Origin: Gammaproteobacteria bacterium
Lineage (GTDB): Bacteria; Pseudomonadota; Gammaproteobacteria; Pseudomonadales; Pseudohongiellaceae
NCBI GenBank assembly: GCA_016764875.1
Contig: JAESQX010000117.1
Span: 1-58,016, forward strand
Direction of reading: 5' to 3'
Length of the DNA stretch: 58,016 bases
Both the position numbers and the translations under genes were made by a program. The notes below the pieces were generated by a model that did not search any database, was not told the origin of the DNA, and saw nothing but the letters and a program-made list of their open reading frames with translations. Of this stretch, positions 10,096 to 41,527 are shown piece by piece. How positions within the stretch are numbered: position 1 is the stretch's first letter; every line of letters starts with the position of its first letter.

Positions 10096-10605
10096 CTACT
10101 GATTTTTTTTTAAGTATTCCAACAGACGAGCTTTCAGCTGCTTTGGCGGCTCCGGGTCAGGCCGTGCTATAGCTCTACGGTAGTCCCGGTGGAACTTTCT
10201 TAAAGTCTGCCTTTCCAGGGTTTCATAATCCTGGATTAGTGCGTTGATTCCTGCGTCGCCATCCACCAGAACCAGATCGCAATATTGCTCAATTAGCTGT
10301 CGTGTCTTCGCAGGTTCCCGGTCAGGTTGTAGCAGTTTTTGTATATCCGCTTCGATATCTGCCAGTTCATGGTCACGCATCAGACGGCCTATGTACTGTA
10401 GCTGGCGCCTTTTGGCCCCGTGACTGTTTGGCAAGCGCTTGAATTCCTTAATGGCGGTTCGTAATTTGTTCGACAGCGGTAATTTGCCCAGCTGGGTGTC
10501 GTTAAAAGTGGTGAGCTTGACGCCTATTTCCTGTAACGCAATCATTTCCCTCTTGCGCTGGGTCTTGCTGGGTAGTTCCTGGGACTGCTCTATGTCGGTG
10601 TTCAT
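10096..10605 (-). CDS. darP: DarP/YjgA ribosome-associated protein
   Basis: 169 aa basic protein; YjgA-type LPLSNKLRTAIKEFKRLPNSHGAKRRQLQYIGRLMR. Confidence 0.9.
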   Translation of the reverse strand: MNTDIEQSQELPSKTQRKREMIALQEIGVKLTTFNDTQLGKLPLSNKLRTAIKEFKRLPNSHGAKRRQLQYIGRLMRDHELADIEADIQKLLQPDREPAKTRQLIEQYCDLVLVDGDAGINALIQDYETLERQTLRKFHRDYRRAIARPDPEPPKQLKARLLEYLKKNQ

Positions 10606-10644: not shown

Positions 10645-12003
10645 TTACAGATAGAAAATATTAGCCAGGCCAAGAAACGTAAAAAAACCAACGGAATCGG
10701 TTACTGTTGTTAATGCTACAGTGCCTGCCAGGGCCGGATCAATATTTATTCTTTTCAGAAAAAGGGGCAAGTAGGCTCCAGCAAGGGCGGCGGTAACCAT
10801 GGTTATTACCATGGCAGCGGCGATGATATAACTGAGTAAAATTTCTCTGTAAACGATAAAAACGACTATCGACGTGACAAGCGCCCAGACTAATCCGTTT
10901 AAGATAGCTGAGCCTAACTCCCTGGAAAGCAACCAGCGAGTATTGGACTGGCTGATATGTCCCAGGGCCAGGCTTCGCACCACCAGTGTCAGGGTCTGGC
11001 TTCCCGCCACACCACCCATATTGGCTACTATAGGCATCAGCACAGCCAGGTAGACTACTTTATCGATAGTATCCTGAAACAGGTAAATGACGGCAGACGC
11101 AATTATTGCCGTCATAAGATTTACGCCCAGCCACACTGACCGGCGTCGTGCTGTTTTGACGATTGGTGCAAAAGTGTCATCTTCTTCATCAAGTCCAGCC
11201 ATGCTCATGAGAGAGTGTTCGGTGGTGTCCCTGATCAGGTCAACAATATCGTCGATGGTTATACGGCCGAGGAGTTTGCCTGCTTCGTCGACAACGGGAG
11301 CTGATACCCAGTCATGTTGCTCAAATAGCTGGGCCACATGAGTTGCCTCCATCTCTACCGGGATAGCTTCAATATCGGTCAGCATAACTTCCCTGACGGT
11401 AATGCCGGGATCAGATACCAGTAATTTCCGTAGCGGGAGAATACCTACGAACTCGTCTTTCCGGTTGACCACCAGTATGTTGTCGGTCATTTCAGGGAGA
11501 GTGTCGTGTCTTCTCAAATAGCGCAGAACTGTGTCCAGCGTATGACGTGGCCTGATAGTAATTGTATCGGTATTCATCAGACCACCGGCGGTATCTTCCG
11601 GATAGGAAAGGATGGTCTCTACTCGCTGCCGGTCCTGCGTGTCCATTGCCTGCAAGACTTCTGCCGTTACCTGATTTGGCAAATGTTGCAGAATATCTGC
11701 AAGATCGTCTGCTTCAAGACCTTCAGTCAGGGCAGCGACTTCTTTTGCGTTCAGGTCTTTCAGGATTTCGTTCTGGATGTCCTCATTAAGATACTGCAGC
11801 ACCTCTCCTTCGGCACCACTATCCACCAGTTGCCATAAAATATTTCGGACTTTCGGTGGTGAAGATTCCAGAAGATGAGCAATACCAGCGGCGGGCAAAA
11901 TTTCAAGCATTTGCCTGACGTGGTAGGCAGAGCCACTGTCGAGCGCCTTGTTCAGTTCAAGGAAGTGGTCTTTGTGAAAGGTGTTTTCTTTAACTTGAGA
12001 CAT
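10645..12003 (-). CDS. mgtE: Magnesium transporter MgtE
   Basis: MgtE N domain, two CBS domains and C-terminal TM region (PIVANMGGVAGSQTLTLVVRSLALG). Confidence 0.96.
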   Translation of the reverse strand: MSQVKENTFHKDHFLELNKALDSGSAYHVRQMLEILPAAGIAHLLESSPPKVRNILWQLVDSGAEGEVLQYLNEDIQNEILKDLNAKEVAALTEGLEADDLADILQHLPNQVTAEVLQAMDTQDRQRVETILSYPEDTAGGLMNTDTITIRPRHTLDTVLRYLRRHDTLPEMTDNILVVNRKDEFVGILPLRKLLVSDPGITVREVMLTDIEAIPVEMEATHVAQLFEQHDWVSAPVVDEAGKLLGRITIDDIVDLIRDTTEHSLMSMAGLDEEDDTFAPIVKTARRRSVWLGVNLMTAIIASAVIYLFQDTIDKVVYLAVLMPIVANMGGVAGSQTLTLVVRSLALGHISQSNTRWLLSRELGSAILNGLVWALVTSIVVFIVYREILLSYIIAAAMVITMVTAALAGAYLPLFLKRINIDPALAGTVALTTVTDSVGFFTFLGLANIFYL

Positions 12004-12203: not shown

Positions 12204-12470
12204 TTATTCGTCTTCGTCAAATCGGTTGTTTATCAGTGCGACAATGGCTGTGATAGCTTGTTTCTCGTCCTCACCATCAGCGACTATTTTTAACACGGTG
12301 CCTTTGACTGCAGCCAGCATCATCAGGGACAGGATGCTTTTACCGTCCACCATTTTGTCGCTGCCGATTTCTATTCGGGCACTATAGGTTGAGGTTAACG
12401 CAACCAGCTTGGAAGCAGCCCGGGCATGAAGACCGGCGTTGTTGATTATTTCAGCTGTAATTTCAAGCAT
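12204..12470 (-). CDS. ptsO: HPr-family phosphocarrier NPr (PTS-Ntr)
   Basis: 88 aa with GLHARAASKLVALTS active site and KSILSLMMLAAVKG; located in the rpoN-ptsN-rapZ cluster. Confidence 0.93.
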   Translation of the reverse strand: MLEITAEIINNAGLHARAASKLVALTSTYSARIEIGSDKMVDGKSILSLMMLAAVKGTVLKIVADGEDEKQAITAIVALINNRFDEDE

Positions 12471-12482
12471 TATGGTTCCATT

Positions 12483-13339
12483 TTAATCCGCTAGTTCCCG
12501 GTGCCGAACCTGAACATTATTAATATGTTCCTGAAAAAAATCACCCAGTTTTTCACAAAGGTAAACGGACCGGTGTTGACCGCCGGTACAGCCCAGAGCA
12601 ACTGTTATGTAACTGCGGTTGTTCTCTTCAAAACGTGGCAGCCATCGCTGTAAATAATCTTTGATATCTTCGTACATATGTTGCACTTCCTGCTGAGAAT
12701 CGAGGTAGTTCACAACCTTTTCATCCAAACCTGTAAGTGAACGTAAGCTGGTTTCCCAATAAGGATTAGGCAGGCACCTGACATCGTAAACAATATCGGC
12801 ATCAACCGGCACCCCGTTTTTAAAGCCAAAGGACTGAAACAGCAGAGCCAGGCCGGTGTCTGATTGTTCCACGATGCGGCTTTTGATCATGTCCCTGAGT
12901 CCATGGAGAGACATGGCGCTGGTGTCAATTGACAGGCTGGCCATTAGAGAAATGGCTTCCAGTAACTCTGTTTCCTTATCAATGGCTTCGCGCAAACCAA
13001 CCCTGTCATCGGACAGTGGGTGTTTACGGCGGCTTTCGCTGAACCGTTTTAATAGTGTCTGGCTATTTGCGTCGAGAAAGATAATGTCGGTTTGTATTTT
13101 TTTTGTTTCAGGCCTTCAATAATCTCCGGAACCTTCTGCAAATCAGTGTAAATGTTTCTGGCATCGATACTGACAGCAATGTTTGAGTTGATAGAGGTAT
13201 CTGCCGCCAGTCGATCTGCCAGAGCCGGCAATAGGCTGGCGGGTAGATTATCAATGCAGTAATAACCGCGGTCTTCAAGAATATGAAGTACCGTGCTTTT
13301 TCCGGAGCCGGATCTACCACTAATTATTAATAATTTCAC
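12483..13339 (-). CDS. rapZ: RapZ (RNase adapter/nucleotide-binding protein) interrupted by a frameshift
   Basis: ORF 13049..13339 carries the Walker A N-terminus ([10 protein letters not shown]); ORF 12483..12995 carries the C-terminus ([40 protein letters not shown]). A -1 shift at the A8 run (13097..13104) joins them into 285 aa. Confidence 0.93.
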
Positions 13340-13373: not shown

Positions 13374-13829
13374 TTACAGTTGGTAGTTTATAGCCACATC
13401 GTAGAGAGCTTTGCCATTGTGAGTATTTCTAAGGATTTTGCAAAAATTTTCATCATTAAAAAGAGCTGCAAGATGGGCAAGTACCCGGACATGTTCGTCC
13501 GTTTTCTGTTCCGGCACAATAAGCAAGAATAGTAAATCAACCGGGATCGAGTCTACTGCATCAAAATCAACTGGCTGATCGAGAGTGACCAGACAGGCAA
13601 TTATTTCTTTCGATGATGAAACGCGGCAATGGGGAATAGCTATGCCTTTACCCAAACCCGTGCTTCCCAGCCGTTCACGGGCCATCAGGGCTTCAAAAAT
13701 CTGGTTGGATTGCAGATGATTTATATCGGTTGCAATTTTCTCGCTGATTTTTTTAAGTAATCTCTTCTTGCTAATCGTTTCCACATCACAGTAGCAGCGA
13801 TCAGGCGTTAATATGTTTTCCAATTGCAT
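13374..13829 (-). CDS. ptsN: PTS-Ntr EIIA component
   Basis: EIIA fold, GLGKGIAIPHCRVSS active-site His; start chosen at MQLENILTPDRCYC, because the 13946 start would overlap rpoN. Confidence 0.93.
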   Translation of the reverse strand: MQLENILTPDRCYCDVETISKKRLLKKISEKIATDINHLQSNQIFEALMARERLGSTGLGKGIAIPHCRVSSSKEIIACLVTLDQPVDFDAVDSIPVDLLFLLIVPEQKTDEHVRVLAHLAALFNDENFCKILRNTHNGKALYDVAINYQL

Positions 13830-13881
13830 TTGGTTAAATTGTTCCTGTTTATACAAAATAGTTGGGCAGGGGTTACCTGGC

Positions 13882-15387
13882 TTAGCCAACCAGACGTTTC
13901 CGTTCATTTGATGGTGGAATAGAAAGCGATTCCCGATATTTGGCAATCGTTCTTCGAGCGATATTGATGCCCTGTTCTTCGAGCAATTTAGTTATCTTGC
14001 TGTCGCTAAGTGGTTTCGCGGTATTTTCTGCTGCAACAAGTTTTTTTATGATTGCCCGAATAGCGGTGGAGGAGCATTCACCACCACCCTGGGTAGAAAC
14101 GTGGCTGGAGAAAAAATATTTCAGCTCAAAAATACCTCGGGGAGTATGCATGTATTTTTGAGTTGTAACCCTGGAAATTGTTGACTCGTGCATGCCAACC
14201 ATCTCGGCGATATCATGCAAGACCAGAGGTTTCATCGCCTCTTCACCATATTCAAGAAACCCTTTCTGATGTTCAACTATGCTGGTGGCAACCTTCATCA
14301 ATGTTTCATTTCTACTTTGCAGGCTTTTAATAAACCACCTTGCTTCCTGCAGGTTGTCTCGCAGATAATTATTATCATTGCTGTTGTCTGCGCGCTTAAC
14401 CAGGGCCGCATAATTTGCGTTTATGCGGATCTTTGGAGCTATATCCGGATTCAGTTCTACTTTCCATTTCCCGGAAGCAGTCTGTTTGGTAACAATGACA
14501 TCAGGCACTATGTAGGTGGTGGAGGGCGGAGCAATGTCGGCACCGGGGCGGGGATTCAGGCTCTCGATTATTTCAATGGCCTTTTTCAGCTCAGGTTCTT
14601 TCAGTTTTGTGCGGCGCAGTATTTGAGCATAATCACGTGTTCCCAGCAGGTTTATATGCTCAGTAATTACTTTTTTTGCATTGCTGACGGCGATGGCCAG
14701 ATCCGGGTCAGAGAGTTGATTTAACTGAATCAGCAGGCATTCTGCCAAGTTGCGATAACCAACCCCCACCGGGTCAAATTGCTGGATTCGGTGCAATACT
14801 GCCAGAATTTCATCGAGCTCAATCTCCAGTGAAGGATCAAGCCCGGAACATATGAACTCGATATCCACTGTGAGCATGCCGTTGGCATCAATGGCATCAA
14901 CCAGTGCCACGGCAATTAAGTTGTCCTGGTCAGACATAGGGGTCAGATTAAGCTGCCACAGCAAGTGGTCCTGCAGCGTTTCCGAAGCTGAATTTCTGGA
15001 TTCAAAATCAGCGTGGTCGCCCTCGAATGATCCCCCTGAAGGGGAAGAACTTTGATAGACATCATCCCAATTGCTATCAACGGGCAGATCTTCTGGGATT
15101 ACTTCAGGCCATTCAGAATTCTCGTCATTGGCCTCTTTCACATCCGGAATAGCTGATTCTGTATTTTCACTGGAGGGTTGTGATTGCTCATTCGGCTTGG
15201 TTTCTGAATTTTCGTCACTGATGTCATCATTTTCTTCGATCAGCTCAAGCATTGGATTGGATTCCAGTGCCTGGTGTATCTCTTGTTGCAGATCAAGGGT
15301 GGAAAGCTGGAGGAGTCGGATTGCCTGCTGCAGCTGAGGGGTCATGGTCAGTTGCTGACTTAACTTGAGCTGAAGCGATAGTTTCAT
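13882..15387 (-). CDS. rpoN: RNA polymerase sigma-54 factor
   Basis: N-terminal [19 protein letters not shown] and C-terminal RpoN box [10 protein letters not shown]; start at [12 protein letters not shown]. Confidence 0.97.
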
Positions 15388-15575
15388 GATCAATACATCT
15401 TTAATTTAATTCAGTTGAAGCGCGTCCCGGATAAACCAGAGGGGCAGAATAATTCGGGATACTCCCAAGAAAGCGAATAATAGCAATTTTCGTGCCTGTT
15501 ATGCACAGAATTGCATAAAAATATAGCTGGATTGATTTTGGCTTGAGGCCAGCACGGTGACGGGGGTATCTGAAA

Positions 15576-41157: not shown

Positions 41158-41527
41158 GTGAGTCAGCTGGACAGTTGCTGCCTGTTACCTTTTAAAGGTG
41201 ATGGATGGAGGAAAGTCCGGGCTCCGCAGAGCAAGGTGCCAGGTAACGCCTGGGGGGTGTGAACCCACGGAAAGTGCAGCAGAAAATATACCGCCGGTCA
41301 TTTCTCACGAAATGGCAGGTAAGGGTGAAATGGTGCGGTAAGAGCGCACCGCGCGACTGGTAACAGTTCGTGGCATGGTAAACCCCACCTGGAGCAAGGC
41401 CAAATAGGAATCCTACGGTGTGGCTCGCACTGGATTCGGGTAGGCTGCTAGAGGTTTGTGGTGACGCAAACTATAGATGAATAACTGTCCACGACAGAAC
41501 CCGGCTTATAGGCTGGCTCAACTTTTT
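41158..41527 (+). ncRNA. rnpB: RNase P RNA, class A
   Basis: GGAGGAAAGTCCGGGCTCC, gcctggggggtgtgaacccacggaaagtgcagcagaaaatataccgcc, GACAGAACCCGGCTTATAGGCTGGCTC; P1 pairing GAGTCAGC (41160-41167) with GCTGGCTC (41512-41519). Confidence 0.96.

Follow-up and report, generated by a model that had tools for sequence, protein, structure and literature searches.

Loss of one A from a homopolymer run, and not programmed frameshifting, as the probable origin of a broken rapZ reading frame in a draft genome of the Pseudohongiellaceae

The rapZ gene encoded on the minus strand at positions 13339..12483 of the window (the whole stretch of DNA analysed here, a contig of 58,016 bases) is broken in two at a run of eight A residues, A8, at 13097..13104. 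The break is very probably a lineage-private event in which an A9 run lost one A, be it in the cells or only in the consensus sequence, and not a programmed frameshift, where "private" is to be understood at genus distance, the nearest RapZ being only ~75% identical. The rapZ frameshift is a real feature of the sequence and an ordinary homopolymer indel. The source genome is a 2.75-Mb draft in 248 contigs (92.5% complete), and the nearest RapZ relatives of the window are encoded by metagenome genomes of Pseudomonadales and Gammaproteobacteria.

The gene is part of a cluster which, in the order of transcription, comprises rpoN, ptsN, rapZ, npr and mgtE, with the following features:

rpoN (sigma-54): 13882..15393, minus strand; intact, with two in-frame A_AAA_AAA heptamers and the frame kept
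ptsN (EIIA-Ntr): 13374..13829, minus strand; intact, upstream of rapZ
rapZ 5' part, frame 0: 13049..13339, minus strand; 96 aa; roughly half of the N-terminal domain, Walker A motif (GRSGSGKS) included
A8 run: 13097..13104, minus strand; site of frame loss, with an in-frame A_AAA_AAA heptamer inside
rapZ 3' part, -1 frame: 12483..13103, minus strand; remaining N-terminal domain and entire C-terminal (RNA/GlcN6P-binding) domain
npr (HPr-like phosphocarrier): 12204..12470, minus strand; intact, downstream of rapZ
mgtE: 10645..12003, minus strand; intact, closing the conserved cluster

The rpoN-ptsN-rapZ-npr order matches that of Escherichia coli, with the exception of hpf, which in E. coli is located between rpoN and ptsN; the corresponding gap in the window (13829..13882) spans ~50 bases without hpf. 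The solved E. coli RapZ (YhbJ, RNase adapter protein; PDB 5o5o) matches both rapZ halves by sequence and shares their gene context, and it differs in that the rapZ reading frame in the window is broken.

The minus-strand codons at the break read gaa ggc ctg aaa caA AAA AAA tac aaa ccg, in a frame 0 which ends with TAA after 96 aa, a reading made in an earlier note on this DNA and confirmed by the sequence and the ORF list; the ORF starts with GTG at 13339. Beyond the run, the -1 frame is open and encodes RapZ domains as far as 12483. The 96-aa product matches positions 1-86 of the Pfam RapZ-like_N profile (PF03668), while the -1 frame matches positions 80-155 of the same profile and positions 3-120 of the RapZ C-terminal profile (PF22740). 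Both family domains are thereby present; in place of a single ORF of ~284 aa, there is a TAA after 96 aa with the rest in the -1 frame. The two halves are collinear and carry no lesion beyond the A run, consistent with the claim of the earlier note that the codons on both sides remain RapZ-like. A second rapZ copy was sought in the genome of the window, and none was found.

In the closest relatives, the corresponding site reads L-(K/Q)-x-x-x-(L/I)-x-x-(E/D)-I-I-F-L-D-A in a single frame. Adding one A to the run, so as to give A9, restores exactly the family-wide length and places I (ATA) at the conserved hydrophobic L/I position, which locates the frame loss in the A run itself; the alignment to relatives thus bears out the earlier placement of the split in the A8 run, as well as the prediction that one added A would yield an uninterrupted RapZ. 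Two other placements were rejected. A lesion further downstream, suggested by a superficial likeness of the frame-0 residues YKPTLSF to the xxEIIFL of the relatives, was ruled out by residue-by-residue alignment, and an insertion of two bases into an ancestral A6 run was ruled out as it would leave the protein one residue short of nearly all homologues.

The comparison with relatives covered 29 homologues of the same family and, from public genomes, 79 complete ones, a total of 108 records from sets that partly overlap through shared contigs. The shift was present in 0 of the 29 and 0 of the 79, all of which are uninterrupted, and no run of seven or more A residues occurs at the site among the 108 records. 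The earlier note had held that an uninterrupted frame and the absence of a slippery run in relatives would argue for a simple mutation, and this is the outcome that the comparison gave. In an order-wide sample, the RapZ N domain was detected in 273 of 295 genomes, and only the genome of the window carries it split inside one contig. One further genome (G173) appeared to harbor a split rapZ, the two pieces of which lie on two contigs and represent a contig break, and another (G125) has an in-frame TGA in rapZ.

A survey of frame changes was performed by comparing sampled stretches amounting to 594 kb of the genome of the window (window included) with 1.2 Mb of a complete genome of the same family. 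It matched 194 conserved reference proteins and returned five candidate frame changes, of which rapZ is the only credible one: one of the others overlaps RNase P RNA, and the remaining three look, by inspection, like spurious ORFs. RNase P class A RNA (RF00010, 330.6 bits) is located at 41159..41524 of the window. A single credible frameshift among 194 proteins indicates that the assembly is not generally frameshift-prone, and an error-prone assembly was ruled out as a general explanation on this basis. The rapZ A8 is also the only run to reach a length of eight within 193 kb of conserved coding sequence, in which A6 occurs 60 times and A7 13 times, and the lesion sits at the spot most liable to mutation and undercall alike. 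Elsewhere in the window, an A9 run is present on the minus strand at 10103..10111, near the 3' end of a 169-aa ORF (10096..10605) whose frame stays open.

Codon constraint is intact in both parts of the gene. Relative to L032, the 5' and 3' halves show 72% and 76% amino acid identity, with differences at the three codon positions of 0.33/0.09/0.53 and 0.21/0.12/0.60, respectively; both exceed ptsN and npr in conservation, and neither the relaxed constraint nor the extra lesions of a pseudogene were found. Such constraint implies that the lesion is recent or is not in the cells. Taken together with the status of rapZ as the only credible frameshift and of its A8 as the only run of such length, it makes a private and very recent contraction by one A the likeliest event.

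Whether this contraction is an artefact or a mutation in the cells is a matter of about equal odds. Of the three explanations that competed in the earlier note, an undercall and a fresh mutation both stand, while recoding, for which the relatives provide no conservation, is not supported. The first of these, according to which rapZ is intact in the organism, with A9, and one A was dropped in the draft consensus, is given just short of an even chance. It is favored by the fragmentation of the draft, by the undiminished constraint on both halves and by the position of the site at the longest A run in the sampled conserved coding DNA; moreover, Antonov et al. (2013) regard sequencing error, rather than genuine indels, as the main source of one class of singleton frameshifts (PMC3711429). 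Against it stands the finding of only one credible frameshift in 194 conserved proteins, in contrast to G375, where rpoN alone is in four frame pieces; the rapZ of that genome (L242), which is in two pieces and was considered as a second frameshift, was set aside, its assembly probably being noisy.

A genuine and recent inactivation of rapZ through the loss of one A, as an early step towards the kind of rapZ loss found elsewhere in the family and possibly subject to accidental partial rescue by slippage, is held to be somewhat below even odds. The family background lends it credence. A RapZ N-domain match was obtained for 124 of 137 genomes of the same taxonomic family, and in 12 family genomes rapZ is a remnant or absent within an otherwise intact cluster:

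rapZ-losing loci: L238, L240, L241, L248 to L252, L254 and L256 to L258, in genomes G343, G351, G356, G358, G404, G353, G396, G402, G398, G354, G352 and G407

Among these, 31 codons of rapZ are left in G351; the remnant in G356 is 78 codons long and has a stop and an altered P-loop, and the copies in G343 and G353 have decayed and contain stops. In G396, G398, G402, G404, G354 and G358, ptsN is closely followed by npr and rapZ is gone, and in G352 and G407, ptsN is followed by mgtE, both rapZ and npr being gone. In a tree built on rpoN, ptsN and mgtE, the losers are spread over two or more distinct parts of the family, and the differing remnants, coupled with rapZ-bearing neighbours, require three or more separate losses. 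Such repeated decay or excision from a cluster that is kept indicates that RapZ is dispensable in the family, which makes a fresh knockout credible. In keeping with a genuine inactivation, the genome of the window lacks a second copy, and an E. coli rapZ nonsense mutant has been recovered under phage selection with raised glmS expression and altered LPS (PMC8546717). Against it, neither half is further decayed, and the genome of the window occupies its own deep branch outside the rapZ-losing groups, so that nesting of its lineage in a rapZ-losing clade was ruled out by the tree. A further observation from the Pseudomonadales concerns genus g34 of family f27, in which 0 of the 10 listed genomes, ~99-100% complete, have a RapZ N-domain match, an apparently genus-wide absence.

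The preferred explanation, a loss of one A, may be envisaged as follows. In the cells, replication slippage would have deleted one A from the A9 run of an otherwise normal and recently selected rapZ; in the consensus, the same outcome would arise from an undercall or from a mixed A8/A9 population. If A8 is present in the cells, translation would mostly stop after 96 aa, producing a fragment which would keep Walker A but would have neither the remainder of the N-terminal domain nor the C-terminal GlcN6P/RNA-binding domain nor the tetramer interface. The C-terminal domain of RapZ binds RNA and GlcN6P, and oligomerization is needed for activity (PMC7073468); if these properties carry over to the organism of the window, RapZ function would be largely lost. 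A small leak of full-length RapZ may nevertheless arise through slippage of RNA polymerase or of the ribosome on the A run. The lesion, its site, its absence from every relative examined, the codon constraint that is kept and the missing stimulators are direct observations; we infer the recency of the lesion, the loss of function and the leak alike.

The closest precedent is provided by the homonucleotide-tract indels of Rockah-Shmuel (2013), in which indels in 8A tracts were frequent and some full-length protein was still made through slippage of the polymerase or of the ribosome (PMC3812077). As in rapZ, the gene was intact apart from a one-base indel in an 8A tract, and full-length protein could partly be made from it; that system is a laboratory library with bypass, whereas rapZ is from a natural draft genome and its bypass is inferred. 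An A8 run in a human gene, as cited by Baranov et al. (PMC1088944), yields about a tenth full-length product. Together, these precedents lead to the expectation of a low level of full-length RapZ without any programme.

That the A8 run constitutes a slippage-dependent or phase-variable switch, which would supply the 96-aa fragment with its P-loop together with a little full-length RapZ and thereby tune the control of envelope precursors in this lineage, is considered highly improbable. Very little credence is given to a programmed event on A8, whether -1 frameshifting or transcriptional slippage, from which the 96-aa fragment and full-length RapZ would both result. An A_AAA_AAA heptamer is indeed present in the correct frame, this sequence is a known shift site in E. 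coli and a frequent one in IS elements (PMC4066793), and the downstream half of rapZ is strongly constrained. However, the heptamer carries no independent weight, since it arises automatically when CAA AAA AAA ATA (A9) drops one A, and it also occurs in intact genes of the same genome: among conserved ORFs, in-frame A_AAA_AAA was recorded six times, two records being the rapZ site counted in both halves and four being copies in conserved genes whose frame is intact, the adjoining rpoN having two. The likeness to dnaX (A_AAA_AAG) which the earlier note had drawn is confined to the in-frame, A-rich heptamer; rapZ lacks a stimulatory hairpin, a proven SD at the right spacing and conservation, and a shift would yield a longer product rather than a shorter one. 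The note had also pointed to an SD-like gaagg. This sequence is there, but the SD-like stimulators of Sharma et al. (2014) are others, namely GAGG, GGAG, AGGA, GGNGG and AGGKG at 6-17 nt upstream (PMC4066793); none of these motifs was found at that distance from the run, the only match, GGAG, ending 20 nt upstream. Downstream folding, modelled for nested (pseudoknot-free) structures, gave z-scores of -0.60, -0.13 and -0.81, no more fold than in shuffled sequences, in agreement with the observation in the note that no strong hairpin follows. The site is conserved in none of the 108 homologue records, and conserved recoding in rapZ was rejected, at genus distance, on the absence of the shift across the homologues and the family and order samples. 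There is likewise no rationale for a 96-aa product. Programmed transcriptional slippage as in Thermus dnaX (A9) and Shigella mxiE (Baranov 2005, PMC1088944) resembles the present case in a run near the slippage-prone length and in the possible restoration of the frame in some mRNAs, and differs in that the rapZ run is unconserved and is A8, not A9. A phase-variable contingency locus, in which A8/A9 switching would turn RapZ off and on, for example under phage pressure, finds some encouragement in the long A tract in rapZ, as E. coli becomes phage-resistant and its envelope is altered when rapZ is lost (PMC8546717), but is most unlikely: the tract is missing from all relatives examined, and eight or nine A residues make a short tract by the standards of contingency loci, no longer than chance would produce in this genome given the A6 and A7 counts above.

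The slippery heptamer of rapZ illustrates that such a motif is, by itself, weak evidence of recoding. Within this Pseudomonadales family, rapZ emerges as a gene that has been dispensed with repeatedly while the nitrogen-PTS cluster around it is conserved, and the rapZ-losing genomes allow amino-sugar control to be compared in nature between lineages that have RapZ and lineages that lack it.
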